From Chelativorans sp. (GTDB taxonomy: Bacteria; Pseudomonadota; Alphaproteobacteria; Rhizobiales; Rhizobiaceae): a DNA stretch of 64,000 bases. Below the pieces are notes generated by a model. It did no database searches. It saw only the letters and a program-made list of their open reading frames with translations, and was not told the origin of the DNA. The translations under genes were made by a program, and so were the position numbers. Position 1 is the stretch's first letter, and each line of letters begins with the position of its first letter. Shown here in pieces: positions 43,176-57,233 of this stretch. The stretch covers positions 62,001-126,000 of the forward strand of contig NZ_JAPSLH010000004.1 of NCBI RefSeq assembly GCF_031180965.1, given 5' to 3'.

Positions 43176-43289
43176 CCGCAGCCTCCCCTCCGCCGATCAG
43201 CAGGCCCGATTGCCGTTCCCTTGCGATTGCGGCAACATGCCTGCCGATGCCGCACTATTGCCGCGACCGCCATCGCCGAAGGAAACCCC

Positions 43290-44801
43290 TTGAAAACGGT
43301 CTTTGTCCTCTTCGATTCGCTCAACCGCCACATCCTCGGCTGCTATGGCGGAAGGCGCGTGCCGACACCGAACTTCGACCGGCTAGCCACGCGCACCCTC
43401 GTGCATGACCGCCACTATGTCGGCTCCCTGCCTTGCATGCCGGCGCGGCGCGATCTGCTGACCGGCCGCCTCACCTTCCTGCACCGCAGCTGGGGGCCAC
43501 TCGAGCCTTTCGACAACGCATTCCCCGAACTTCTCAAGGAGAAGGGCGTCCATTCCCACCTGGTCACCGATCACTATCACTACTGGGAGGATGGCGGCGC
43601 CACCTATCACAATCGGTACTCGACCTATGAGTTCGTGCGCGGGCAGGAGAGCGATGCCTGGAAGGCGATGGTGCAGCCGCATTGGGAGCGGCTGCGCGAG
43701 AAATATCACGAGCGCCAGGCCGGCGGCGGCGACGCGATCAGCAAATATTCCACCCACATCATCAACCGCGAGTTCATCCGCAAGGAGGAGGATTTTCCTT
43801 CCGTCCAATGCTTTGCGCATGGGTTCGACTTCCTCGACATGAACCGGCAGGCCGACAACTGGCTGCTGCAGATCGAGACGTTCGACCCGCACGAGCCCTT
43901 CTTCGCGCCCGAACGGTTCAAGGAGCCGTTTAGGACCGGCTGGAACGGCCCGATCCGTGATTGGCCGCGCTACGGCCGCGTGGACGAGCTGCCGGAAGAA
44001 GCGGAGGAACTGCGCGCCAATTACTATGCGACGGTCGCTCTCTGCGACCACCTACTAGGCAAGCTGCTCGACTATTTCGAGGAGCACGAGCTGTGGGGGG
44101 ACACTGCCCTGATCGTCACCACCGATCACGGGTTTCTGCTCGGAGAGCACGATTTCTGGGCGAAGAACCGGATGAACATGTATGAGGAGATCGTCCACAT
44201 ACCTCTCTTCATCCACGATCCGCGGCGGCCGCAGGCAGGCCGCACCAAACGCCTCACCCAATCGATCGACATGGCGCCGACGATCCTCGACCTCTACGGG
44301 ATCGAACCGCCGCCCGAGACGGAAGGCAAGTCCCTCTTGAGCAAGGGGAATCGCGAGGCGGCGATCTTCGGCTATTTCGGCGGAGCCGTGAACGTCACCG
44401 ACGGCCGCTATACCTATCACCGATTCCCCGAGGATCTGAGCAGGCAGGAGATCTACCAGTACACGGTGATGCCGACGCATATGGCGCAGCGCTTTACCCC
44501 GGAGGAGCTTTCCACGGCGACGCTCGCCAAGCCCTTTGGCTGGACGAAGGAGGTGCCGCTCCTCAAGGTGCCGGTGATCAAGCGCTCGCCGATGTATGCC
44601 AATTACGGGCCGGGCTCGATCCTCGAAAGCGACACCCGCCTCTACGACCTTGAAGCTGATCCAGGCCAGGAGAGGCCGATGGAGGACGCCGCCATCGAGG
44701 CGCGGATGATCGGCCTCATGCGCGGCCTGATGACGAGAAACGAGGCGCCGCCGGAGGCTTTCACCAGGCTAGGGCTGGAGCCGGCGGAAGCCGTCGGGTA
44801 G
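43290..44801 (+). CDS. Type I sulfatase/phosphonate monoester hydrolase family protein
   Basis: 503-residue cytosolic hydrolase of the alkaline phosphatase superfamily. Cys49 lies in CMPARRDLLTG, matching the CxPxR signature where a maturase converts Cys to formylglycine. Metal-site residues are suggested by LFDSLNRHILGCYGG at the N-terminus and TTDHGFLLGEHDFW near 276. No signal peptide is seen. The start is a TTG behind AAGGAAA. Substrates may be sulfate esters or phosphonate/phosphate diesters; sequence reading cannot separate these. The formylglycine-generating enzyme is not in the window. It lies 114 bp after rhaK on the same strand, but with its own ribosome site. Confidence 0.88.
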   Translation: MKTVFVLFDSLNRHILGCYGGRRVPTPNFDRLATRTLVHDRHYVGSLPCMPARRDLLTGRLTFLHRSWGPLEPFDNAFPELLKEKGVHSHLVTDHYHYWEDGGATYHNRYSTYEFVRGQESDAWKAMVQPHWERLREKYHERQAGGGDAISKYSTHIINREFIRKEEDFPSVQCFAHGFDFLDMNRQADNWLLQIETFDPHEPFFAPERFKEPFRTGWNGPIRDWPRYGRVDELPEEAEELRANYYATVALCDHLLGKLLDYFEEHELWGDTALIVTTDHGFLLGEHDFWAKNRMNMYEEIVHIPLFIHDPRRPQAGRTKRLTQSIDMAPTILDLYGIEPPPETEGKSLLSKGNREAAIFGYFGGAVNVTDGRYTYHRFPEDLSRQEIYQYTVMPTHMAQRFTPEELSTATLAKPFGWTKEVPLLKVPVIKRSPMYANYGPGSILESDTRLYDLEADPGQERPMEDAAIEARMIGLMRGLMTRNEAPPEAFTRLGLEPAEAVG

Positions 44802-44840: not shown

Positions 44841-45890
44841 TCAGGCGTGCACCAGCGCGGGCGCGGGCTGCTCGGAGCCCGCCGCCATGTCCAGGATGCG
44901 CTGCAGATTTGCGGCGTGGCGGAAGCTTGGCTCAGTCGCAGCCATGTTGAGCCGCACCGCGTTGACGAAGCGCTCGTAGTTGGTTGCAACCGGCGCGGCC
45001 GGCATATCGCGCCAGGTGGCTGTCTCGGCGTCCTCGTCGAGACAGACCCTCAGGTGAGACGCCTGCGGCGTGTGCTGCACTTCGATGCCGCCCTTGTCCC
45101 CATAGATGCGGACCTTCAGCTCGTTTATGTGGCCGGTGGCCCACCGCGTGGCGTGGACCACTCCAAGGGCGCCATTGGCGAAGTCCGCCGTCATGACGAA
45201 GCTATCATTGGCGTCCAGCGCATATTCGCCAATCCGGTCGCCCTCGGCCTTGTGGAAGGTTTTCAGGCGGCAGGTGATCGAGTCGATATCCGTCGCAGCG
45301 CCATAGGAGGCGAAGTCGAGGATGTGAATGCCGATGTCGCCAAGCGTACCGTTTGAGCCGTGCGCCTTGGAAAGACGCCATAGCCACTGCGGGCCGCTGC
45401 GCCAGTCACCCCAAGCCTTGGAAACGAGCCAGCTCTGCAGATAGGAGGCCTCCACATGCTTGACCCCGCCAATTCGCCCGGAGAGAACGAGATCGCGCGC
45501 GGCGTGGATTTCGGCCACGTTCCGGTAGCTCAGATTCACCATGGCCACCAGGCCCGCCCTTTCGGCGGCATCGGCCATTTCAGAAGCTTCGGCGTAGTTC
45601 GTGGCAAGCGGCTTTTCGCAGAGGACATGCTTGCCCGCGGCAATGCAGAGCATGCTGGTCGGATAATGGGCCGCGTCAGGCGTCACATTGGTGACTGCGT
45701 CGAAATCGCCCCAGGCAAGCGCCTCCTCGGCTGTCGCGAAGCGGCGCTCGATCTTGTGCAGCTCGCAAAAGGCCGCGAGCCGCTCGGGATTTGTGTCCAC
45801 CGCGCCGACGAGACGGACGCCGGGGATGGCCGCGAAGCGCGTGGCATGCTGGTTGGCCATCTTCCCAGTGCCGAGGATGAGCAAACGCAT
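44841..45890 (-). CDS. Gfo/Idh/MocA-family oxidoreductase (ThuB-like position)
   Basis: 349-residue NAD(P)-dependent sugar oxidoreductase: LILGTGKMA at residues 4-12 (Rossmann), CEKPLATNYAEA near 95 with the conserved EKP lysine, and GTLGDIGIHILDFASYG near 184 supplying the Asp and His of the active site. It follows the ThuA-like gene by 14 bp on the same strand. A ThuA plus Gfo/Idh pair (ThuA/ThuB) acts in trehalose and other disaccharide oxidation in Sinorhizobium, so a related keto-sugar role is a reasonable guess, not proven. Confidence 0.87.
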   Translation of the reverse strand: MRLLILGTGKMANQHATRFAAIPGVRLVGAVDTNPERLAAFCELHKIERRFATAEEALAWGDFDAVTNVTPDAAHYPTSMLCIAAGKHVLCEKPLATNYAEASEMADAAERAGLVAMVNLSYRNVAEIHAARDLVLSGRIGGVKHVEASYLQSWLVSKAWGDWRSGPQWLWRLSKAHGSNGTLGDIGIHILDFASYGAATDIDSITCRLKTFHKAEGDRIGEYALDANDSFVMTADFANGALGVVHATRWATGHINELKVRIYGDKGGIEVQHTPQASHLRVCLDEDAETATWRDMPAAPVATNYERFVNAVRLNMAATEPSFRHAANLQRILDMAAGSEQPAPALVHA

Positions 45891-45904
45891 ATGAAAAATC
45901 TTTC

Positions 45905-46690
45905 CTATCTGAAACCGGCTTCGCCCGGAGCGTGCAGCTTCGGCCCGCGTTCGACGATGGGTTCGGGAGCCTGGTCCACCGGCACGTTTGGAGCATTGTG
46001 GATGGCGGTGAAGGCTGGCGCGGCCGGATGAGCCCAGCGCACCGCATTGCGCAGCACCTTGCCCACCGTTGCGTCGTGATAGGTGGGATAGGCTTCGTGG
46101 CCCGGCCGGAAATAAAAGATGTTGCCGGCGCCGCGCCGGTAGGTCAGGCCCGAGCGGAACACCTCCCCGCCTTGGAACCAGGAGATGAAGACGGTCTCGA
46201 GCGGCTCGGGAACGGAGAAGGGCTCGCCATACATCTCCTCCTGCTCCAGCTCGAAATATTGCGGCAGGCCGCGGGCGATGGGATGTCCGGGATTGACCAC
46301 CCAGACCCGTTCGCGCTCGCCCGCCTCGCGCCATTTCAGCGCGCAGGGCGTACCCATCAGCCGCTTGAAGATCTTGGAGAAATGGGCCGAATGGAGAAGG
46401 ATGAGGCCCATCCCTTCCCAGACCCGCTTCGCCACCCGCTCGACAATCTCGTCGCTCACCTGGCGGTGGGCCTTGTGGCCCCACCAGACAAGCACATCGG
46501 TCTCCGCCAATGCCTGTTCCGTCAAGCCGTGTTCGGGATCCTGCAGGACCGCTGTCCGGACAGAGATATCACCTTCGGCAGCGATCGCATTGGCGATGGT
46601 CGTGTGCATGCCTTCGGGGTAGATCGACCGCACGAGCTCGCTTTGCTGCTCATGTACGTTTTCGCCCCACACAAATGCTTTGATGCTCAT
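45905..46690 (-). CDS. ThuA-domain protein
   Basis: 261-residue protein spanning one ThuA (glutamine-amidotransferase-like fold) domain: WWGHKAHRQVSDE near residue 69, LLHSAHFSK near 98, and the conserved FYFRPGHEAYPTYHD near 193. Such proteins act in utilisation of trehalose and other saccharides, probably on 3-keto intermediates. It forms a pair with the following Gfo/Idh gene. It is upstream of nothing else on its strand, so its promoter must lie in the 423-bp gap to the right. Confidence 0.85.
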   Translation of the reverse strand: MSIKAFVWGENVHEQQSELVRSIYPEGMHTTIANAIAAEGDISVRTAVLQDPEHGLTEQALAETDVLVWWGHKAHRQVSDEIVERVAKRVWEGMGLILLHSAHFSKIFKRLMGTPCALKWREAGERERVWVVNPGHPIARGLPQYFELEQEEMYGEPFSVPEPLETVFISWFQGGEVFRSGLTYRRGAGNIFYFRPGHEAYPTYHDATVGKVLRNAVRWAHPAAPAFTAIHNAPNVPVDQAPEPIVERGPKLHAPGEAGFR

Positions 46691-47113: not shown

Positions 47114-48025
47114 ATGTTACATATGGAGAGCAAAGCCCGTGAGGGCGCAAGTCCAACCGACGGGGCCACGGGTGTGGCCATCAACCATGCCGGCCGGCGC
47201 GTCCTCCTGAAATGGCACCGGCTGCGGCGCAGCGCACAAGACCCGCTCTTCAGCGCCCACGTGCTCGCGGAGGGTCTTAGGCTCGGAGCTTCGATGGAGA
47301 TCGATCTCCGGGTCACGCGGGACGGCGGCTTTGCGGTGTTGCATGACGAGAGGCTCGACGAGGAGACGAGCGGCGCGGGACTTGTCGCCGAACGGACGGG
47401 CGAGGAGATCAGGGAGCTTCACTATGCTGAGCCCGCCAGAGACGGCGCGCCGCGCGCGGTGATGCTCGCCGAGGATATCGCGGAGCTTCTCGGCCCAGCG
47501 CATCCGGATGCCCTGCTTCAGCTCGATATGAAGGACGACTTGTCCGAGGGACGCCGGGGGGTGGACCGGCTGGCGGAGCTTTTCGCCGGCCATCAAAAGC
47601 ATCTGGTCGTCAGCGGCGACGACACGGATTTGACGCGTGCCATCGGCGAGAAGCTGCCCGGGATGAAGCAGGGCCTGGAGCCCTCCTTCCGGCTGCTCGA
47701 CCTCTACCGCGCCGGGGAGAAAGACAAACTGGCGAGCCAGCTTTCCGGCGAGCTTGGCGGCCCCGTCCGGCCATATATCGTCTATCTCTGGTGGCAGCTC
47801 GTGCTGGACGCGGATGCCGACGGCATCGACCTCATCCGCGTCTGCCACGACCGCGGTGCGCTCGTGGACGCCTGGACTTTCAATCTCGCTGACCCGGGTG
47901 CTGGCTTCAGCGATGAGGAGTGGCGAAAATTCTCGCGGCTGCTTGAGCTCGGCGCCGATCAGATCAGCACCGACGAGGCGATCGCCACTGAGCGGGCCTA
48001 CTACATGCGGGCTTCCGCCGGCTGA
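47114..48025 (+). CDS. Divergent glycerophosphodiester phosphodiesterase-family protein
   Basis: About 303 residues of GDPD-like TIM barrel. Active-site remnants are visible: His35-Arg36 (KWHRLR), Glu62 and Asp64 (MEIDLR), His77 (VLHDERL) and a QLDMKDD strand near 136. The usual ENT motif after the first His-Arg is missing, so metal binding or specificity may differ from ordinary GDPD. The start is uncertain (ATG at 47114, ATG at 47123 or GTG at 47069), and none has a strong ribosome site. It converges on the IMPase gene with only 6 bp between, and probably acts with the transporter/GDPD/IMPase operon on phosphodiester substrates. Confidence 0.75.
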   Translation: MLHMESKAREGASPTDGATGVAINHAGRRVLLKWHRLRRSAQDPLFSAHVLAEGLRLGASMEIDLRVTRDGGFAVLHDERLDEETSGAGLVAERTGEEIRELHYAEPARDGAPRAVMLAEDIAELLGPAHPDALLQLDMKDDLSEGRRGVDRLAELFAGHQKHLVVSGDDTDLTRAIGEKLPGMKQGLEPSFRLLDLYRAGEKDKLASQLSGELGGPVRPYIVYLWWQLVLDADADGIDLIRVCHDRGALVDAWTFNLADPGAGFSDEEWRKFSRLLELGADQISTDEAIATERAYYMRASAG

Positions 48026-48031
48026 AGCTGC

Positions 48032-48850
48032 TTACGCGGCCTGCACCAGGTCGTGCAGAAATCCCAGATGCGGGCCAAGGCTGGGGGCGTGAGCCGCGAG
48101 CGGCCCGCCGCGCTCCAGCATGACACTGAGCGGAGGCATGTCCACCACCGCGCCGGCCTCGCGCGCAATAAGTGCGCCCGCCATGACGTCCCACGCATTC
48201 ACATGCGCCTCGTAATAGAGATCGGCCACACCAGAGGCCACGCGCACAAGGCCGAGCGCTGCCGAACCCAAGCGGCGGTAGTCCACGCCAAGATGATAGA
48301 GCCGCCGTTGTACGGACTGGTAGTCGTCGAAGCTGGTCCGCCGCGAGCAGCCCAGTATGGCGAGGCCTTCGTCGGGATCTTCACGCCGGGAGACGGCAAT
48401 CGGCCGCTCCTCGCGAAATGCCCCATGCCCCCGAGCCGCCGAATAGACCTGACCCGTCGTCGCGTCATAGATGCAGCCGATTTCGATCTCGCCGCCCCGC
48501 ACGAAGGCGATGGAAACGCACCAGTGGCGCAGGCCGCGGATATAATTGGTCGTACCGTCAATGGGATCGACGACCCAGACGCTTTCCTCGCCGGATGCAC
48601 CGCCGGTTTCCTCGCCGACAAAGCCGTCCTCCGGGAAGGCAGCGCCGAGGGCAGCCTTGATCGTCTCCTCCGCCTTCTGGTCCGCGGCCGTGACGAAGTC
48701 CTGGAGCCCCTTACGCCGGAAGGCTATGCCGGCATCCTGGCGGAAAACCTCGATCTCATGGCCGACGGCGACGGCAAGCGTGCGGGCAAGGGCCAGCCGC
48801 TCGGATAGCCCGGTCTCGCTCGCCGCCTCCTTCACCTCATCCTCCCTCAT
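48032..48850 (-). CDS. Inositol monophosphatase-family phosphatase
   Basis: 272-residue Mg-dependent sugar or polyol phosphatase. Metal ligands are GEE at 79-81 and DPIDGTTN at 95-102, with the third-site motif NAWDVMAGALIAREAGA near 219. The family dephosphorylates myo-inositol 1-phosphate, sugar phosphates or glycerol 2-phosphate; the substrate here is not fixed. It is the last gene of the operon and its ATG overlaps the LacI stop by 4 bp. With the GDPD genes, it suggests stepwise removal of phosphate from an imported phosphodiester. Confidence 0.9.
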   Translation of the reverse strand: MREDEVKEAASETGLSERLALARTLAVAVGHEIEVFRQDAGIAFRRKGLQDFVTAADQKAEETIKAALGAAFPEDGFVGEETGGASGEESVWVVDPIDGTTNYIRGLRHWCVSIAFVRGGEIEIGCIYDATTGQVYSAARGHGAFREERPIAVSRREDPDEGLAILGCSRRTSFDDYQSVQRRLYHLGVDYRRLGSAALGLVRVASGVADLYYEAHVNAWDVMAGALIAREAGAVVDMPPLSVMLERGGPLAAHAPSLGPHLGFLHDLVQAA

Positions 48851-49842
48851 GCCGTGCCGCGCCGCACCAGGGAAACAGGCGTCACTTCGAGCCGCTCCGG
48901 CTGCGCTGGCTCGTCCATGCGGCTCACGAGCAGATTGACCGCCTGTTCCGCCTGCACGTCGCAGGGCTGGCTTATGGTGGTCAGGTCATAGGCGGACCAG
49001 GCGGCCTGCGGGATATCGTCGTGCCCAACAATGCGGATGCTGTCCCTCCCGCCCTGCCGATGCAAACCGTCGATCAGCCCGCAAGCCATGTAGTCGTTGA
49101 CGCAGAAGACGCCGTCCACGCCATCAAGGCAGGAAGCGGCCGCAAGGCCGTGCCTGTAGCTGTTGTATTCGACCGGGATGACGCGCACATCCCGCTGCAG
49201 GGCATAGCAAGCGGATACGAAAGCCTGCTGCCGGCAGCGGGCAGTATAGGACGTGGCGCTCGAGACGATCACGGCCAATTTGCGCGCGCCGGCCTCCACC
49301 AGGGTCGCGGCGGCAAGCTTGCCGGCTGCATTGTTGTCGGAAACCACCCGATCGACGGAAGGGATCGTATCGGCCTTGTTGATGAGCACGATGGGCACGC
49401 CCGCGGCGGCGAACTCGGCGCAAAGCGCGGTCGGCGGGGCGTCGGACGTGACCAGCACGCCGGAGACATTATAGTGGAGAAGCTGGTCCATCACGTGGTC
49501 GGCGCTCTCGCCGTGGTCGGCCGGCAAAAGGATGGGCTTGAAGTTGCGGCGCACGAGATTCTTGGTGATCTGCTCGATCTGCATCGCGCGGTAGGGATTG
49601 TCCATGCCGGCCGCGATCACGCCGACGAAGTCCGAACGCCTGTTGATCAGCCCGCGCGCCAGATAATTGACACGGTAACCGAGCTCCTTCGCCGCCCGCA
49701 CCACCTTCTCGCGCGTCTCGGGCGACACGCTGGCATTGGGCGTGAAGCTGCGAGACACGGCGGCGCGGGACACGCCGGCGCGCTGCGCCACGTCAAAGGA
49801 GGTGACCTTGCGGCCGCGCGCGGGCTTCTCGGGTCCGTTCAT
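48847..49842 (-). CDS. LacI-family transcriptional regulator
   Basis: 331-residue repressor: an N-terminal helix-turn-helix plus hinge (about 14-62, with VTSFDVAQRAGVSRAAVSRSF) and a periplasmic-binding-like effector domain (about 68-330). It is encoded inside the operon, overlapping the GDPD stop and the IMPase start by 4 bp each, so it is made with the enzymes it presumably controls. Two CACGTG-centred palindromes in front of the operon fit the operator type of this family. The inducer would be the imported ligand or a derivative. Confidence 0.92.
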   Translation of the reverse strand: MNGPEKPARGRKVTSFDVAQRAGVSRAAVSRSFTPNASVSPETREKVVRAAKELGYRVNYLARGLINRRSDFVGVIAAGMDNPYRAMQIEQITKNLVRRNFKPILLPADHGESADHVMDQLLHYNVSGVLVTSDAPPTALCAEFAAAGVPIVLINKADTIPSVDRVVSDNNAAGKLAAATLVEAGARKLAVIVSSATSYTARCRQQAFVSACYALQRDVRVIPVEYNSYRHGLAAASCLDGVDGVFCVNDYMACGLIDGLHRQGGRDSIRIVGHDDIPQAAWSAYDLTTISQPCDVQAEQAVNLLVSRMDEPAQPERLEVTPVSLVRRGTA

Positions 49843-50603
49843 GCAGGGACCTTGTCTCTTGCCTCGCATAGACGCTCCGGCAGATCGGAGCAAATGCCGA
49901 GAACCGGCAGCGTCATGAGGTCGCCAATAATCTCCGGCCGCTCCTCGTGCCAGAGAACGATCTGGCGGCCGCTGTCGAGGATTGTCTTCGTCAAGTCCGG
50001 CGTGACCAGATCCTGCGGCCGCTCGCCTCCCCGTTCCCAGCACAGATGCACGATATCCGCACCCGCACGCTCGGCCTCTTCGATGGGGTCCGCGCCGAGC
50101 CGGACGAGCACGGAGAGCGGAAAGTCGCAGCCTTCCTCCCGCAAAAGCCGCACGGGCGCAGTGTCGAAGGAGCCGAGGGCGGCGAAACGCTGCTCTTGCT
50201 CCTTCAGATGGCGCCAGACCAGAGGGGCAGCGTCCGGCGCCTTGATCTCCACATAGAGCCCGGCGCCCCGCGCGCGTGCAAGCGCGGCCACCTCCGTGAA
50301 GGTCGGCACCTCCAGGCCCGGCAGTTCTTTGAGCTCCGCCGCCGTCAGCTCCGATACATGCGCATCGACCCCGAACACGCGCTGCAAGTGATCGTCGTGG
50401 CTGACGACGCAAACACCGTCGCGCGTCACCTGCGCGTCAAGCTCCCACATCTCGGCCCCCAAATCGGAGGCGCGGGCGAAGGCGGCAAGCGTATTCTCCG
50501 TCGCATGGCCGCTTGCGCCGCGATGCCCGATCACCAGCGGATATGTCTGCCCCGCAGGCCAGCGGAAACGGCTGGCGAAGGCGGGGATGTCGTTGTCGCT
50601 CAA
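49839..50603 (-). CDS. Glycerophosphodiester phosphodiesterase
   Basis: 254-residue GDPD-family enzyme with an intact active site: IGHRGASGHATENT (His27, Arg28, Glu36), WELDAQ (Glu54, Asp56), SHDDHLQR (His69) and the EIK strand near 127. The family hydrolyses glycerophosphodiesters to sn-glycerol 3-phosphate and an alcohol. No signal peptide, so it acts on imported substrate in the cytosol. It starts with a TTG that overlaps the ATPase stop (TTTGAGC), preceded by GGGGAG, and so is coupled to the transporter. A UgpQ-like role is the simplest reading; specificity for a sugar phosphodiester is also possible. Confidence 0.92.
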   Translation of the reverse strand: MSDNDIPAFASRFRWPAGQTYPLVIGHRGASGHATENTLAAFARASDLGAEMWELDAQVTRDGVCVVSHDDHLQRVFGVDAHVSELTAAELKELPGLEVPTFTEVAALARARGAGLYVEIKAPDAAPLVWRHLKEQEQRFAALGSFDTAPVRLLREEGCDFPLSVLVRLGADPIEEAERAGADIVHLCWERGGERPQDLVTPDLTKTILDSGRQIVLWHEERPEIIGDLMTLPVLGICSDLPERLCEARDKVPA

Positions 50604-51658
50604 AGCCGCTCCCCGTTTTGGGCGAACAGGAAAAGCTGGTCGCTCCTGACGCGCCACTCCACCTCGTCATGCAGCGAGACATCGTCGCGCACCCGCTGGA
50701 TCGAGCGCAGAACCTTTCCGTTCGCAAGGGTGATGTCGTAGAGATTTTCTCGCCCCTGGGTTTCGATGAAGCTCACGCGCCCGCGGATGGCGGCATCACC
50801 CTCCGTGCCGAGATTCTCCGGCCGGATGCCGACCACCACAGGTGTACCTTCGGGGACCCGGTCTGCCTCGCGCGGGATGGGCAGGCGGATGTCGGCATTC
50901 TCGACTGCAAGCATACCGTCTCTGGCCACCGCATCGATGAAGGCGATGGGAGGATTGCCCAAGAATCCAGCGACGAAGGCGGTGCGGGGATTGCGGTACA
51001 TTTCCTGCGGCGTGGCGATCTGGATGATCTGCCCATTGTTCATGATGGCGATGCGGTCACACATGCTCATCGCCTCCACCTGGTCGTGCGTGACCAGGAT
51101 GGCGGTGATGCCGGTCTCGAGCTGGATGCGACGGATCTCCGAGCGCATTTCCAATCTGAGCTTGGCGTCGAGATTGGCGAGCGGCTCGTCGAGCAGAAGC
51201 ACGTTGGGCCGGCGCACCAACGCCCGCGCCAGCGCCACGCGCTGCTGCTGCCCGCCGGAAAGCTCGGCCGGCCGGCGATCGAGCAGGCTGCCGATGTGCA
51301 CGAGCCCTGCCATCTCATTGACCAGCCGCTTGATCTCGGCTTCGGGAAGGCTGCGGATGCGCAGCGGAAAGGCGATGTTCTCGCGCACGGTCATGTGCGG
51401 GTAGAGGGCGTAGGACTGGAAGACCACGCCCACATTGCGCTCCTGCGAGGAAACATTGGTGACGTCGCGGTCGCCGAAGAGGATGCGGCCGGACGTCACC
51501 TTATGGATGCCGCAGATGGCAAAGAGCGTGGTCGACTTGCCGCAGCCGGACGGGCCGAGAAGCGCCAGCATCTCGCCATCCTTTATCTCGAGCGTCATGT
51601 CGTCGATCACGCGGACGGAGCCGAAGGACTTCGAGAAGTGGTCAAGCAGGATACGCAT
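50600..51658 (-). CDS. Carbohydrate-type ABC transporter ATPase (UgpC/MalK-like)
   Basis: 352-residue ATPase: Walker A GPSGCGKST at about 35-43, Q-loop VVFQSYALYP, signature LSGGQQQR near 132, Walker B LLLDEPLANLD near 152, H-loop VTHDQ, and a C-terminal TOBE-type regulatory domain (about 240-350, with GIRPENL). It energises uptake of a sugar or glycerophosphodiester through the two permeases. Its ATG shares a base with the stop of the upstream permease, and its stop overlaps the GDPD start. Confidence 0.93.
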   Translation of the reverse strand: MRILLDHFSKSFGSVRVIDDMTLEIKDGEMLALLGPSGCGKSTTLFAICGIHKVTSGRILFGDRDVTNVSSQERNVGVVFQSYALYPHMTVRENIAFPLRIRSLPEAEIKRLVNEMAGLVHIGSLLDRRPAELSGGQQQRVALARALVRRPNVLLLDEPLANLDAKLRLEMRSEIRRIQLETGITAILVTHDQVEAMSMCDRIAIMNNGQIIQIATPQEMYRNPRTAFVAGFLGNPPIAFIDAVARDGMLAVENADIRLPIPREADRVPEGTPVVVGIRPENLGTEGDAAIRGRVSFIETQGRENLYDITLANGKVLRSIQRVRDDVSLHDEVEWRVRSDQLFLFAQNGERL

Positions 51659-52482
51659 CAGCCCTTGGTGCCTCCCCCGTAGATGTTCATCAGATACTTC
51701 TGGAAGAAGAGGAACAGGATGAGGACGGGCGCGATGTAGAAGAGCCCGACCGACTTGAACATCGCCATGTCGAAATTGTTGTCGTCGGCGATCAGCCCGG
51801 CCAGATAGACGGAGAGCACCTGCACGTCGCCGCCGGGCGCCAGCACCTGCGGCAGGATGAACTCGCTCCAGCCAAGCAGGAAGGCGAAGAGACCCAGCGC
51901 AAAAAGCCCCGGCTTCACCTGCGGCAGGACCAGCTTGCGCCAGACGGTGAAGCGGCTCGCCCCGTCGGCAATGCCGGCCATCTCGATCTCCCAGGGAACC
52001 GTGTCGTAGAAGCCCTTCATGATCCAGATGCCTAAGGGCATGTCGATCGCCGCCTTTACCAGGATCACGCCGATCAGAGAATTGTAGAGCCCGACCATCT
52101 GCAGAACGAGGAAGATGGCCACGATCAAAGTGACGGCCGGGAAGGCGTGCAGCACCATGACGCCGGCCAGGAAGAAGGCGCGGCCGGGGACGTTGAGCCG
52201 CGAGAGCACATAGCCCGCCGTGGAGGAGACCACGAGCACCACGAGACAGCTCGACGAAGCGAACAGGAAGGAATTCAGCGTCACCCGCCAGATGCTTGGT
52301 TTGCCGGGCCTGGTCTCCCAAAGAAAGCGCCAATGCTCCAGCGTGAATTCGTGCGGGATGAAGGAACCCGGCGGGGAGTTCGTGATCGTGTCGATGAAGA
52401 GGTAGGAATACATCAGCACGATCGGCGCGCTGATGATGGAGAGCGCGAGGACAAACGGCCAGCTTTTCAGATGTCCCGTCAT
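51658..52482 (-). CDS. ABC transporter permease, MalG/UgpE type
   Basis: 274-residue inner-membrane permease with six hydrophobic segments and an EAA-type ATPase-docking loop (EIEMAGIADGASRFTVWRKL, about 166-185, ending LPQVKPGL). Together with the larger permease it forms the translocation pore. It is 8 bp after the upstream permease and overlaps the ATPase gene by one base. Confidence 0.92.
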   Translation of the reverse strand: MTGHLKSWPFVLALSIISAPIVLMYSYLFIDTITNSPPGSFIPHEFTLEHWRFLWETRPGKPSIWRVTLNSFLFASSSCLVVLVVSSTAGYVLSRLNVPGRAFFLAGVMVLHAFPAVTLIVAIFLVLQMVGLYNSLIGVILVKAAIDMPLGIWIMKGFYDTVPWEIEMAGIADGASRFTVWRKLVLPQVKPGLFALGLFAFLLGWSEFILPQVLAPGGDVQVLSVYLAGLIADDNNFDMAMFKSVGLFYIAPVLILFLFFQKYLMNIYGGGTKG

Positions 52483-52490
52483 GGCCGCCC

Positions 52491-53891
52491 CTAGAGCTCG
52501 ATGCGCGGCTTTGCCACCAGCGCTCGATAATTGAAGACCCTGAGATAGATGAGCGACAGGACGATGCCGATCACCACGAGCACCAGCGCCATCGCCGCGC
52601 CATAGCCATATTGCAGGTTGCCCGCATAGTTGTTGAGCGCGGTGTGGTAGATGGCCAGCGACCAGATCTCCGTCGCGCCGCCAGGGCCCCCGTCAGTAGC
52701 CAAAAGCGTCTGCTCGATCGAGGTGAGCAGCGACAGCGTCTGGTAGCAGGTGACGAAGAGGATCGGCCATTTGAGCTGCGGCAGGATGATGTGGCGCACC
52801 TGCTGCCAGCGATAAGCGCCGTCCACGCTCGCCGCATGGAACAGCGATTCCGGAATGGCCTTGATGGCGGAGGAAAAGATCACCATCCCCATCGAGGCGC
52901 CGACGAAGCCGTTGATGACGATGACGAAGAACCAGGCGTTCGCCGCCGTATCGAGCATCCAGTTGCGCGGGCGGATGCCGAAATTGTCCAGGAAGGCGCT
53001 CAAAAACCCCGTATCCCAGGCGAACCACTTCCACAAAAGCACATAGATCACCGCCGGCGAGATGCGCGGGAGGAACCAAATGATCCGGAAGATGCCGGCC
53101 GGGCGCTCGGGGATGTAGTGCGTCGTGATCGCCAGCAGCATGGCAAATGCGGTGTTGAAGATGATCAGCGTCGTCGCCACGAAGAAGATCGTGTTGAGGA
53201 GGATGCGGACGGTGTCGCGCGAGGAGGCCATGCGGCGGAAATTGTCCGCGGTCCAGACCCAACCCGTATAGGTAGCCTGGACGAGAGCCGTCTTCTCTTC
53301 CTCTGTGAGTTCGGGATCCACCCCCTCTGCCGCCGCGAGCAGGCTCTCCCTGCTCGAGAACCGTGAATTGGCAAGCGAGCGGCTGAACTCGCCGGAGATG
53401 CGCTTCACCGTCCGCGTGTCCGGCCGCTCCGGCAGGTCGCGCAGCATGCGCTCGAATTCGCGCCGCGAGGCATGGGTCTCGCCGAGGTGGCCTTCTCTTA
53501 GGTCGGCGATGATCGCGGGCTCGATGCCCATCTCCTCAAGCGCCTTCAGCCCCTGTTCGTCCACCACGAAGGAAGGCTGGCCGAGCTTTTCGGCAAGCTC
53601 GTCCATCCCATGACGGTCAGCCAGCTCGCGCAGTGCGCCGGGGGTCACCTGGTAGGTGCCGCCGCTGATCCCGGTCGCAGTGCTCATATTGGTGAAGGCA
53701 AAGACCCCGGTCAGAACGACGGGCATCAGGAAGAACAGCACCACCAGCACGAGGGCGGGCATCAGGAGAATGAGACCCAAGCCGCGCGAGCTGTTCAGCC
53801 AGCCGGCACGCCAGCGCGGAGGATGTGCCGAAGCGGCCGCAGCGCCCGCGGGCACCGCGGCGGCCTCGACGATATCGCGGGACGCGCTCAT
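52491..53891 (-). CDS. ABC transporter permease, MalF/UgpA type with large periplasmic insertion
   Basis: 466 residues, much longer than the ~295 of UgpA. After a first membrane segment (about 38-66) comes an insertion of about 130 mostly charged, helix-prone residues (about 72-205) before the usual GWVWTADNFRRM stretch and the remaining five segments. The EAA loop ESLFHAASVDGAYRWQQVRHIILPQLK is near 365. E. coli MalF has a comparable periplasmic P2 domain between its membrane helices that contacts the binding protein, but this insertion does not obviously resemble it. The gene lies 10 bp after the binding-protein gene. Confidence 0.9.
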   Translation of the reverse strand: MSASRDIVEAAAVPAGAAAASAHPPRWRAGWLNSSRGLGLILLMPALVLVVLFFLMPVVLTGVFAFTNMSTATGISGGTYQVTPGALRELADRHGMDELAEKLGQPSFVVDEQGLKALEEMGIEPAIIADLREGHLGETHASRREFERMLRDLPERPDTRTVKRISGEFSRSLANSRFSSRESLLAAAEGVDPELTEEEKTALVQATYTGWVWTADNFRRMASSRDTVRILLNTIFFVATTLIIFNTAFAMLLAITTHYIPERPAGIFRIIWFLPRISPAVIYVLLWKWFAWDTGFLSAFLDNFGIRPRNWMLDTAANAWFFVIVINGFVGASMGMVIFSSAIKAIPESLFHAASVDGAYRWQQVRHIILPQLKWPILFVTCYQTLSLLTSIEQTLLATDGGPGGATEIWSLAIYHTALNNYAGNLQYGYGAAMALVLVVIGIVLSLIYLRVFNYRALVAKPRIEL

Positions 53892-53901
53892 CTTTTTCCG
53901 C

Positions 53902-55242
53902 TCAGCGGATGACGATGCCTTCGCCCAGGCTGTTCTTCAGTTCGGCCTCCAGATCCTGCACCGCCTGCTCAGGCGTCTTCTGGCCCGTCCAGGATGCTTC
54001 CAGCCCAGCCCACATGGCATTCCAGTAGGTGCCGAACTCGGCGTTGTTGGGCATGGCGTTGGCGTGCGGCAGCAGGCGCTCGGTCGCCTCCCGCGCCCAG
54101 CGGTCATTGGAGTAGAGGTCGATGTTCGACTGCTGCTTGGTGATGCCCAGATGCGCCGACTTGATGGCATGCAGTGTGTTGATGCGCGGTTCGGAGGCGA
54201 TCTTCACCAGTTCCGCCGCGATCGCAACCTCATCCTCGTTGTCCTGCTTGGTCAGCACATAGACGAGCGGATGGGTGAGCGTGTTGGCCTTGCCGCCCTC
54301 GCCTGCCGGAATCAGCGAGAAGGAGATGCTGCCGAAGAAATCCTTCAGGCCTTCCTGGTTGGTGTAGCGCGCATAGTGCCAGGTGCCACCGTGCCAAATG
54401 CCGGCCTTGCCGCTCGCCACTTCCGCCCACCACTGGTCGTTCGGCGTGCCGATATGGTTCTTGCGGGTCACGCCCGCGGCGACGGCATCGACGAAGAACT
54501 GGTAGAAGCGCTGCATTGCAGCCTTGTCGAGGACGAGCTTGCCGTCCTCTTCCATGACGCCACCGAAGCTCGTGTAGAACTGCCAGTAGTCCGGGCCGTT
54601 GTTGGGGCGGGGATAGAAGCCGTAACCAGCGGGCACCACGCCCTGGTCCACCATCTTCTTGGCGTCTTCCAGCACATTGGCGAGCGTGTACTCGCCGCTC
54701 TGGACCTTGTCCGCCAGCCCGTCGAGATCGGCGTCCGTATAGCCGATCTTGCGCATGTACTCCTTCCAGAAGAAGAAGGGCCGCGCCTCGGCGTCCTGCG
54801 GCAGGCCGTAGACGACCCCGCCATAGGACGCAACTTCGAGCAGATTCTCGTAGATGTCGTTGATGGGCCAGGCGTCGAGATTGACGTAGTCCTCGATCGG
54901 CACGATCAGCCCGGATTGGGACCAGGGGCCGATATCCTCATGGCCGGTCACGAGGATGTGCGGCACGTTGCCCGCCTCGGCGGCAAGCGTTACGGCCTGC
55001 TTGAAATCGTCCCAGGTGTTGTCCACCTTCTTCTCGACGGTGATGTTCAGCTCCTCGCCGCGCACCGCCGCCTCGCGCTCCAGAAGATCGGCGGCAATGT
55101 CGATCGCGTCGACACGGTAGACGTCATTGGGGCTGCTGCCGCCCGCCCAGACGCGGATGGTCACATCCTCCGCCAAGGCATAAGTCGCGCTTGAAGCAAG
55201 AGCCACCGCCGCGACGGTGGACCTCAATAGATGCTTCGTCAT
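53902..55242 (-). CDS. Extracellular solute-binding protein (family 1)
   Basis: 446-residue periplasmic binding protein with a Sec signal peptide (STVAAVALASSATYALA, cleavage near residue 24). A type I solute-binding fold follows: IRVWAGGSSPND near 29, NVPHILVTGHEDIGPW near 92, YGLPQDAEARPFFFWK near 144 and IWHGGTWHYARYTN near 283. It carries many aromatic residues, as expected for stacking on sugars. It is the first gene of the phosphodiester operon and therefore under direct control of the operators upstream. Confidence 0.92.
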   Translation of the reverse strand: MTKHLLRSTVAAVALASSATYALAEDVTIRVWAGGSSPNDVYRVDAIDIAADLLEREAAVRGEELNITVEKKVDNTWDDFKQAVTLAAEAGNVPHILVTGHEDIGPWSQSGLIVPIEDYVNLDAWPINDIYENLLEVASYGGVVYGLPQDAEARPFFFWKEYMRKIGYTDADLDGLADKVQSGEYTLANVLEDAKKMVDQGVVPAGYGFYPRPNNGPDYWQFYTSFGGVMEEDGKLVLDKAAMQRFYQFFVDAVAAGVTRKNHIGTPNDQWWAEVASGKAGIWHGGTWHYARYTNQEGLKDFFGSISFSLIPAGEGGKANTLTHPLVYVLTKQDNEDEVAIAAELVKIASEPRINTLHAIKSAHLGITKQQSNIDLYSNDRWAREATERLLPHANAMPNNAEFGTYWNAMWAGLEASWTGQKTPEQAVQDLEAELKNSLGEGIVIR

Positions 55243-55366
55243 CTCGTACGTTCCTCCTTGCGTTTTCCGTCAGGTTTAGGGCGGCAACCAGGACCGTGGC
55301 GGCGAAAGTTGATGGCCGAGCCCACGGCTTCCTCCCTAGTGCCCTTCCCTGACAGTCAGATGACAG

Positions 55367-55382
55367 ATGTGCACGTGTGCAT
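55367..55382. promoter_or_regulatory. LacI-type operator candidate 1
   Basis: ATGTGCACGTGTGCAT, a 16-bp imperfect palindrome with CACGTG at its centre. It shares its core and eleven of sixteen positions with the second site 45 bp away (centre to centre), a distance close to an integral number of helical turns, as for repressors that bind cooperatively. Probably bound by the LacI protein of the operon. Confidence 0.55.
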
Positions 55383-55411
55383 TCTTTTTATTTCAGGCTG
55401 ATCCCTCTATA

Positions 55412-55427
55412 TTGCACACGTGTACAG
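55412..55427. promoter_or_regulatory. LacI-type operator candidate 2
   Basis: TTGCACACGTGTACAG, a palindrome centred on CACGTG; TGCACACGTGTACA deviates from perfect symmetry at a single pair. It lies directly downstream of TATATT, which could be a -10 box for the plus-strand transporter gene. The site may control both divergent transcripts. Confidence 0.55.
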
Positions 55428-55474
55428 TCCCATGCACGATGCCGCCCGTCAAATGTTTTTCCGTCGGGCGCAGC

Positions 55475-55542
55475 GTCTTCGGAAGACTCGCGTTTAGGAA
55501 GACGGCAAACCATTTTGCCGTCTGGAAGGCCCCTGCCGGGGC
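55475..55542 (+). promoter_or_regulatory. Structured 5' leader of the Na/Pi transporter
   Basis: Three perfect hairpins in a row: GTCTTC/GAAGAC (55475-55487), AGACGGCAAA-CCAT-TTTGCCGTCT (55500-55523) and GCCCC-TGCC-GGGGC (55529-55542), ending 20 bases before the ATG. None has a T-tract. The arrangement could be a leader that modulates translation or transcript stability; no known riboswitch class is recognised. Confidence 0.4.
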
Positions 55543-55562
55543 ATGATCGGGAAACGAGCTGA

Positions 55563-57233
55563 ATGAGCGGGTCCGTCTTCTTTTTGCATATGGCCGGCGC
55601 CATCGCGTTGCTGCTTTGGGCGACACGCATGGTGCGCACCGGCGTGGAGCGGGCTTATGGCGAGGCGCTGAAGCAGCGGCTGCGCCGCACGCTGCGCAAC
55701 CCGCTGCTCGCGACCGCGGCGGGCCTGGCTCTCGCCGTCGCGCTGCAAAGCTCGACCGCGGTGACCCTCCTCGTCGGCTCATTCGCCGGTTCGGGCGTGG
55801 TGACGGGCCTGGCCGGCATCCTTGCCGTGCGCGGCGCGGAGGTCGGTTCGGCGCTCGTCGTCAAGATCCTGAGCTTCGATCTGGCGCTGCTCGTGCCCCT
55901 CTGCCTTCTCGCCGGCACCGGGATATTCATGGCCACGGAGCGCCGCTCGTGGCGCCAGGCGGGGCGTATCCTCGTCGGCATCGGCCTTCTGATCCTGTCC
56001 CTGCAGATGATGGGAGAGGCCGCGGAGCCGCTGCGCCAGAGCCGGCTCGTGCCGCTGATCGTCGGCTATCTCTCATCCGACCCGATCACCGCCTTCCTGC
56101 TTGCCGCCGTCGTCACCTATCTCTTCCATTCGAGCATCGCCGCCGTCCTGCTGCTCGCCACCTTCGCCGCGCGGGGGATCGTCACGCCGGAGCTGGGCGT
56201 GGTGATGGTGCTCGGCGTCAATCTTGGCAGTTCCTTCATCGCGCCGATGCTGACGCGCGGCGCGCCGGCCGAATGCCGTGTCGTTCCCCTCGGCAACCTC
56301 CTCATGCGCGGCGTCGGCTCGGTGCTGGGGCTTGCCGCAGTGATGTTCTTCAACCCGCCCTTGGCGTTGCTCGGGAGCGATGCGGCGGACCAGGTCATCC
56401 ATGCGCATATCGCGTTCAACCTGCTCATCCTCGTTGCAGGCATCCCCCTTTCCGGTTTGGTGCTGCGGGCGACGGAAGCGTTGGTGGCGCTATCGCCGGG
56501 CCCCACCCCGGAAGAGAAGCAGAACGCACTGTTGAGCGAAAGCACCGCCCTGGACGAGAACGCGCTGGAGCATCCGCAGCAGGCGCTCGCCAACGTCACA
56601 CGCGAGGCGGTGCGCATGTGCGAGACGGTCGAGTTCATGCTTTGCCGCGTTCTCGAACTCTACGAAAAGCCGGACCGGGAGGCGATCCAGGCGCTTGCTG
56701 ATCTCGACGACTCGCTCGACCGCCGCCATGCGGCAATAAAACTCTATCTTGCCCGCATCAGCCGGGAGGACATGACAAAGGACGAGGCGCACCGGTGCCA
56801 GGAACTTCTCGGCGTTTGCGTCAAGCTGGAGCAAGTGGGGGACATCATCGTCCGCAACCTGCTTGCGCATGTGAGACGAAAGATGGAACGAGGCGTCGAA
56901 TTCACGCCAGAGGGCTGGCGCGAGCTTTCCGACTTCCATGCCGCGGTGCTTGCCAATGCTCGACTTGCCTTCAATCTGCTGGTGACGCAGGACCCGGAGA
57001 CGGCGCGCAAGCTGGTGGCGGAGAAGGACCGGCTGCGCGATGTCGAGAAGACGATGAGCCAGCGCCATTTCGAGCGCCTTCGCAAAGGCGCCGAGCAGAG
57101 TTTGGAAACGAGCTCGATCCATCTCGATACGATTCGCGATTTCAAGCAGATCAACTCGCTGCTCGCCACGCTCGCCTATCCGGTGCTCGAGGCGCAGGGG
57201 TTGCTGCGCGGTACGCGCCTTAAATCGGCCTAG
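55563..57233 (+). CDS. Na/phosphate cotransporter with PhoU-like domain
   Basis: 556 residues: an N-terminal membrane half (about 1-310) with the inverted-repeat signatures QSSTAVTLL near residue 63 and HSSIAAVLL near 186 that mark the NptA/SLC34 phosphate carriers. A C-terminal helical PhoU-like region (about 335-545) follows. It moves phosphate with sodium, and the bacterial PhoU-fused form may work in export or uptake. It is divergent from the GDPD/IMPase transporter operon, whose enzymes would release phosphate inside the cell, and shares its regulatory region. Confidence 0.9.
   Translation: MSGSVFFLHMAGAIALLLWATRMVRTGVERAYGEALKQRLRRTLRNPLLATAAGLALAVALQSSTAVTLLVGSFAGSGVVTGLAGILAVRGAEVGSALVVKILSFDLALLVPLCLLAGTGIFMATERRSWRQAGRILVGIGLLILSLQMMGEAAEPLRQSRLVPLIVGYLSSDPITAFLLAAVVTYLFHSSIAAVLLLATFAARGIVTPELGVVMVLGVNLGSSFIAPMLTRGAPAECRVVPLGNLLMRGVGSVLGLAAVMFFNPPLALLGSDAADQVIHAHIAFNLLILVAGIPLSGLVLRATEALVALSPGPTPEEKQNALLSESTALDENALEHPQQALANVTREAVRMCETVEFMLCRVLELYEKPDREAIQALADLDDSLDRRHAAIKLYLARISREDMTKDEAHRCQELLGVCVKLEQVGDIIVRNLLAHVRRKMERGVEFTPEGWRELSDFHAAVLANARLAFNLLVTQDPETARKLVAEKDRLRDVEKTMSQRHFERLRKGAEQSLETSSIHLDTIRDFKQINSLLATLAYPVLEAQGLLRGTRLKSA

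Follow-up and report, generated by a model that had tools for sequence, protein, structure and literature searches.

A conserved operon of Chelativorans sp. predicted to import and degrade a phosphodiester, with a Pho box and LacI-operator-like sites in its promoter

The UgpBAEC-UgpQ system of Escherichia coli is under Pho-regulon control, and it shows that a plain glycerophosphodiester route needs no phosphatase of the inositol-monophosphatase family (IMPase). The agrocinopine (Acc) system of Ti plasmids imports an intact phosphodiester through an ATP-binding cassette (ABC) transporter and processes it with a glycerophosphodiester phosphodiesterase (GDPD), AccF, followed by a phosphatase, AccG; its repressor responds to the monoester produced by AccF (PMC4526662). 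In this study, we analyzed a 64,000-nt stretch of the 4.37 Mb genome of Chelativorans sp. (the window, to whose full length all positions refer) and characterized seven minus-strand genes at 48032-55242. They share with Ugp (L060) a CUT1 transporter and a GDPD gene placed after the ATPase gene, and with Acc the combination of ABC import, GDPD, phosphatase, and repressor. We found that this gene set is conserved in related loci, that its promoter carries a Pho box next to LacI-operator-like sites, and that the GDPD and LacI genes form a single reading frame in three relatives. These observations make it likely that the operon imports an intact phosphodiester, breaks it down in two steps and is under dual control, whatever the diester. 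The original prediction had proposed the import and the two-step release of phosphate, and both gain support, as predictions, from gene content, conservation, and promoter motifs.

Gene content and conservation of the operon

The first gene (53902..55242, minus strand, like the six that follow) encodes a periplasmic solute-binding protein (SBP) of the CUT1 type, with an N-terminal signal-like stretch and a match to SBP_bac_8 (PF13416, 1.2e-16). Its AlphaFold model, based on eight close sequences, is poor (mean predicted local distance difference test, pLDDT, 49.7; predicted template modelling score, pTM, 0.45). Next come two permeases (PF00528), permease A of 466 residues (52491..53891) and permease B (51658..52482), and a MalK/UgpC-like ATPase with OB_MalK and TOBE_2 domains (50600..51658; PF00005). 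The probable TTG start of GDPD1 (49839..50603; PF03009, 4.7e-28) overlaps the stop of the ATPase gene, and its Pfam score of 99.4 bits lies far above the cut-off of 23.6. The GDPD1 stop is in turn overlapped, by 4 bases, by the start of a LacI-family repressor gene (48847..49842; PF00356 and PF13377), and the LacI stop by the start of the IMPase gene (48032..48850; PF00459, 3.4e-56). With 191.2 bits against a cut-off of 27, the latter product belongs to the IMPase family; it scores under the SuhB and HisN equivalog cut-offs, and the PDB sequences nearest to it are those of SuhB/IMPase. Since the seven genes are separated by gaps of only 8-10 bases or overlap by 1-4 bases, they very likely constitute one operon. 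Together with a second GDPD gene and a sodium/phosphate (Na/Pi) carrier gene, both considered below, they make up the nine genes of the original prediction, all of which were recovered as open reading frames with Pfam matches where it had placed them.

A search with the SBP at E values up to 1e-40 over 297 genomes of the order, its own included, returned 22 genomes, 19 with identities of 58-100% (core) and three with 31-32% (distant). Searches with an SBP profile at 1e-60 gave matches in 6 genomes out of 385 at the class level and 5 out of 398 at the phylum level, again with its own included. The SBP or a relative was also present in 141 of 72,556 plasmid records, 130 at 60-80% identity and 11 lower; 121 of these records are from Rhizobium. 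Its closest relatives are found in a Rhizobiaceae metagenome-assembled genome (88%), six Chelativorans genomes (83-86%), and Phyllobacterium brassicacearum (79%). We compared 35 core loci, namely the window, L026-L033, L037-L054, L057, L061, L069, L074, L077, L078, L105, and L106. GDPD1 follows the ATPase in all 35 (incomplete in L031 and L042, where the contig stops), LacI is found in all 32 in which the contig continues, and IMPase in 27 of the 31 that could be assessed. The co-occurrence of GDPD, IMPase, LacI, and the ABC genes, for which the original prediction had suggested a genome search, is thus conserved. Related loci in at least eight families (f1, f6, f26, f40, f41, f44, f51, and f92) have this gene run, which is more than expected by chance. 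Among distant loci, a GDPD gene lies nearby in 11 of 14, and Pfam scans of the open reading frames around such loci were empty in 8 of 10. In a Martelella locus (L076:14217-15743), a metallophosphoesterase gene occupies the place after GDPD where IMPase is expected, a possible replacement.

From this gene content, the periplasmic SBP would capture an intact small phosphodiester and the CUT1-type transporter would import it. In the cytoplasm, GDPD1, assisted by GDPD2 or, in relatives, by a second GDPD domain, would split the diester into an alcohol and a phosphomonoester, from which the IMPase would strip the phosphate. In this way, the operon may scavenge both phosphorus and polyol carbon.

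Promoter architecture

Upstream of the SBP gene, in the orientation of the operon (minus strand), we found a Pho box, CTGTCATCTGACTGTCAG (55349..55366), which agrees at 13 of 14 positions with what we take to be the consensus, two CTGTCAT repeats with a 4-base spacer. It abuts a LacI-operator-like site (site 2, 55367..55382, minus strand), and a further one (site 1, 55412..55427, minus strand) lies 45 bases upstream of site 2. The core operator motif TGYACACGTGYRCA, with at most one mismatch, occurs at two places genome-wide, both upstream of this operon. The Pho box, also with at most one mismatch, occurs at three places (none for the reversed control): this operon, the interval between a GntR-UTRA gene and phnGHIJ, and the inside of trbL. 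The sole other intergenic box of this quality is therefore upstream of phnGHIJ, which codes for carbon-phosphorus lyase. PhoB itself is present in the genome, above its cut-off.

Both elements recur in 34 promoters, that is, those of the core loci except L031, whose upstream stretch is missing. A site resembling the operator motif TTGCACACGTGTGCAA, which was derived from these same promoters, is present at 12 or more of 16 positions in 33 of them (26/26 and 7/8, L074 being the exception); shuffling gave a mean of 0.56 and a maximum of 3 for the 26. At 11 or more of 14 positions, 15 of the 26 promoters carry a Pho box in operon orientation and none in reverse (shuffles, mean 0.3, maximum 2), as do 3 of the 8 further promoters. 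The distant loci L034, L055, and L056, which were left out of these counts, reach at best 9-10/16 for the operator and 10/14 for the Pho box, and distant L107 has an operator-like site at 12/16 and no Pho box at 11/14.

The two elements stand at set distances from each other. A Pho box of at least 10/14 lies at a set offset from an operator site in 29 of 34 promoters, while 500 shuffles within 60-base blocks gave a mean of 0.03 and a maximum of 1. In the Chelativorans-Phyllobacterium-Rhizobium-Neorhizobium group, all 17 promoters have a Pho box whose start follows that of the operator by 16-18 bases. In 12 of the remaining 17, which comprise 14 loci with a double-domain GDPD1 (see below), L042, and the single-domain loci L049 and L051, the Pho box start precedes the operator start by 39-40 bases. 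This promoter architecture implies joint control by PhoB and LacI, which we consider well supported as a prediction from motifs. In this scheme, scarcity of inorganic phosphate would lead PhoB to activate transcription from the Pho box, and LacI would keep the promoter repressed in the absence of an inducer; expression would thus require both signals. None of this regulation was part of the original prediction, nor were the fused and double-domain forms of GDPD1 described below.

Several observations weigh against the scheme of import, breakdown, and dual control. The offsets and the grouping were picked post hoc from eighteen sites at 11/14; eleven promoters at 10/14 then landed on the chosen offsets, the +18 offset of four Rhizobium-type loci being itself a later addition. 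When all operator sites are averaged, +16 ranks first among the offsets of the first group, and −39 ranks only second in the other, behind −1. Five of the 34 promoters have no Pho box at the expected position, and of the 29 that do, 11 score only 10/14. The reversed operator pattern is as frequent in the genome as the operator itself (1 and 3 against 2 and 2 matches), so that the place of the sites counts and not their number. As to gene content, IMPase is not beside the operon in 4 of the 31 assessable loci (L041, L043, L046, and L069), no GDPD gene was found near 3 of the 14 distant loci (L056, L070, and L071), and many loci are close kin, which means that the counts are not independent.

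Phosphodiesterases and the GDPD1-LacI fusion

In three Rhizobiaceae records, those of Neorhizobium petrolearium (L078), N. galegae (L106), and genome G295 (L039), GDPD1 and LacI form a single reading frame of 579 residues with no stop in between, and Pfam detects both domains in each. Neorhizobium sp. EC2-8 (L105), whose frames are broken, was left out of this count. A separate LacI could still be made from an internal ATG at the fusion junction, where the L078 record annotates the LacI start. The Acc repressor, which answers to the AccF product, suggests where the inducer of LacI may come from, and by this analogy LacI probably responds to the monoester that GDPD1 releases. Such an inducer would explain why the two genes overlap or are fused.

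Fourteen core loci code for a double GDPD1 (466-544 residues, taking the longest frame) with another GDPD as its C-terminal half; a single-domain GDPD1 is found in L049, L051, and the group formed by Chelativorans, Phyllobacterium, and Rhizobium. Among 57 GDPD domains placed in a tree, GDPD1 forms one clade (92/90) and the C-terminal domains of the double proteins a separate one (97/90). A third clade (99/95) contains GDPD2, a divergent GDPD encoded on the plus strand of the window at 47114..48025 (alternative start 47123), in a gene that converges on the IMPase gene. Its match to PF03009 is partial (1.5e-12, 48.6 bits). AccF is separate from GDPD1 and clusters with four GDPDs located beside distant transporter relatives (100/98). 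GDPD1 conserves H27, R28, E54, D56, H69, K121, and a W-H-E-E motif across 23 rows, and GDPD2 conserves H32, E59, D61, H74, D135, and K137 (numbered from 47123). The His, Glu, Asp, and Lys residues at what we take to be the catalytic positions are kept in all three clades.

GDPD2 may compensate for the missing second domain of the single-domain enzymes. A first count of GDPD2-family matches, with G199 (GDPD1 cut by the contig end) and seven distant genomes set aside, gave 14 of 14 single-domain genomes (7/7 and 7/7) and 1 of 12 double-domain genomes. Reading the neighborhoods led us to reject the strict rule that a genome with single-domain GDPD1 has GDPD2: matches of 36-40% in G679, G680, and G005 sit in another ABC-GDPD-IMPase locus type, and those of 34-36% in G175 and G219 in other contexts. 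Hence, we counted only close GDPD2 (at least 49% identity): 10 of the 14 single-domain genomes have it, and none of the 12 double-domain genomes does (Fisher, 2e-4). The single-domain genomes belong mostly to one clade, so the pattern hints at replacement and does not prove it. Close GDPD2 is adjacent to the operon in the window, a few kb off behind ThuB-ThuA in Chelativorans sp. J32, and on another contig elsewhere. In eight GDPD2 neighborhoods, we found no operator (at least 13/16) or Pho box (at least 12/14), except for two operator-like sites in L118.

The surroundings of GDPD2 show further features. A Gfo/Idh/MocA oxidoreductase gene, presumably ThuB-like, and a ThuA gene (PF06283) adjoin it in the window (44841-46690, minus strand), and a sulfatase gene lies just past them (43221-44801, plus strand). 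In J32 (L119:5693-8853), the GDPD2-ThuA-ThuB block is inverted yet kept together. A second locus type (L080, L116, L117, and L118), found in Ketogulonicigenium, two Chelativorans genomes, and one further genome, joins a different ABC transporter to a GDPD2-family enzyme and an IMPase; L118 also has a LacI-like gene.

Substrate candidates and comparison with known systems

The best clue to the substrate comes from plasmids of Thermus thermophilus (L062, L079, and L081), where a related transporter and a GDPD end an inositol-catabolism operon. The order there is iolD, a TIM-barrel gene, iolC, an aldolase gene, iolG, iolB, and a DeoR gene, followed by the transporter and GDPD genes, with gaps of at most 24 bases. 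The Thermus GDPD joins the GDPD2 clade (100/99). The identities between window and Thermus proteins are 32% for the SBP, 51% for permease A (over 217 residues), and 46% for both permease B and the ATPase; the window transporter is thus nearer to Thermus than to Ugp, with which the permeases share 24-27% and the ATPase 43%. The Chelativorans genome itself has iolD above cut-off, next to iolC-, iolE-, and iolB-like genes. Within the order, iolD is more common in genomes with the SBP (17/22) than in the others (90/275; Fisher, 8.6e-5, uncorrected for kinship and genome size), and in the distant genome G015 it lies about 15 kb from the SBP gene on the same contig. On the strength of the Thermus operon, an inositol diester is the best of the originally proposed substrates, and an inositol phosphodiester such as glycerophosphoinositol is, tentatively, the likeliest single compound. 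Two facts speak against it. iolD is not found above cut-off in 5 of the 19 core genomes (G026, G122, G175, G219, and G273), so that the use of inositol for carbon cannot be a general feature, and in 51 loci searched, iol genes stand beside the transporter in Thermus only. The most specific version, a glycerophosphoinositol pathway in which GDPD1 would act as a trigger enzyme, passing its monoester to a coupled or fused LacI, with PhoB and LacI forming an AND gate, seems to us rather doubtful.

The same machinery may instead serve another substrate, either glycerophosphodiesters in general (glycerophosphocholine, -ethanolamine, or -glycerol) or glycerophosphosugars. The IMPase would then dephosphorylate glycerol phosphate or a sugar phosphate, and inositol would be a lineage-specific use in Thermus. 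We give this nearly even chances, which overlap with those of the scheme of import, two-step breakdown, and dual control, since the mechanism is shared. Besides the core genomes with no iolD, it draws on the two GDPD clades and the double-domain form, which suggest more than one diester or isomer, and on the IMPase family, whose enzymes are often promiscuous. It leaves the IMPase superfluous for a plain glycerophosphodiester route, and it sits less well with the kinship of both the transporter and GDPD2 to the Thermus inositol operon.

Uptake of an opine-like sugar phosphodiester of the agrocinopine type, which would make the operon an Acc counterpart beyond Ti plasmids, is improbable; one point in its favor involves the Na/Pi carrier. 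In the window, the carrier gene (55563..57233, plus strand; PF02690, with PhoU domains, PF01895) is divergent from the SBP gene, 320 bases from its start. The original prediction had counted it as part of the set; it stands as a neighbor in the window, but is near the operon in only 4 of the 35 core loci (the window, L026, L027, and L037). A carrier also lies near the presumed acc genes of pTiCFBP5877 (presumed by gene content, as the record has no names) and near another ABC-GDPD-IMPase set on pTiLBA1191, so that the four-part set of ABC, GDPD, IMPase, and carrier seems to have been assembled more than once. In the pTiLBA1191 copy (L059:9722-12331), the carrier, which shares 95-96% identity with its pTiCFBP5877 counterpart, is split into two open reading frames, and the annotation divides the IMPase into two pieces. 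The clustering of AccF with GDPDs of distant transporter relatives also favors an opine-like role. Against it stand an SBP from another family, a LacI instead of a DeoR regulator, the place of GDPD1 outside the AccF clade, kin in Roseobacteraceae and Thermus, and the Pho box, which indicates phosphorus nutrition. An ordinary sugar transporter operon with GDPD and IMPase as mere passengers is very improbable: CUT1 transporters and LacI are typical of sugar uptake, and in the PDB the SBP comes closest to proteins that bind maltose and other sugars, but GDPD1 in every core locus, the GDPD1-LacI fusions, and the set spacing of the Pho box speak against it.

We found no description of the operon in the open literature, as covered by titles, abstracts, and top matches, with subscription journals mostly outside. 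The individual parts are of known kinds; we encountered no account there of the assembly, the composite promoter, or the enzyme-repressor fusion. A survey of inositol catabolism (PMC9430895) does not contain the words "phosphodiester", "glycerophospho", or "Thermus", and the main text of a LacI regulon survey (PMC4052901) lacks "glycerol" and "phosphodiester". Diesters of phospholipid headgroups are an organic phosphorus pool of soil. If our reading is correct, rhizobia widely possess a dedicated diester uptake operon whose promoter combines phosphate and substrate signals and whose phosphodiesterase can be fused to the repressor; this would be a further route in the cycling of soil phosphorus and in competition at roots.

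Among described systems, the glycerol-1-phosphate transport by GpxB/UgpB (PMC12718374) shares ABC uptake of glycerol phosphates, with UgpB being of the CUT1 type; it differs in taking up phosphomonoesters, and the main text contains neither "phosphodiester" nor "inositol". The Thermus operon shares the related transporter and a GDPD2-like enzyme and differs in its place within inositol catabolism genes and in its DeoR regulator, with no match to IMPase or LacI in the stretches read. Membership in Ugp was rejected, in line with the distinction originally drawn. The SBP matches neither the UgpB model of NCBIfam nor UgpB in BLASTP at 1e-3 (hhalign, 19% identity, E 8.4e-8, indicates the same broad fold family), the ATPase falls under the UgpC cut-off (372.1 against 432 bits), and GDPD1 falls under that of PRK09454 (60.9 against 264), a glycerophosphodiesterase model that we take to be UgpQ. 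The window operon has, by its motif, a Pho-regulon-type promoter like that of Ugp; it adds LacI and IMPase, and its GDPDs come from other clades. The likeness to AccF and AccG, to which the original prediction had appealed, holds for the logic of the pathway and, on two Ti plasmids, for a Na/Pi carrier close to paired GDPD and IMPase genes. It does not extend to family membership, which we rejected: Acc has an Opp-type transporter and a DeoR-family regulator, while the window operon has SBP_bac_8, CUT1-like permeases, LacI, and a GDPD1 of another clade. The SBP does not resemble the AccA-position protein of L058 at 1e-3 (BLASTP), and the IMPase is 33% identical to AccG over 207 residues. In the IMPase tree, AccG sits on a long branch of unsettled placement, and the operon rows do not form one clade (3 changes). 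The Pho box and the LacI operator likewise set the operon apart from Acc. If true, our reading would also reveal the relationship between ordinary nutrient systems and the sugar-phosphodiester opine pathways of Ti plasmids.

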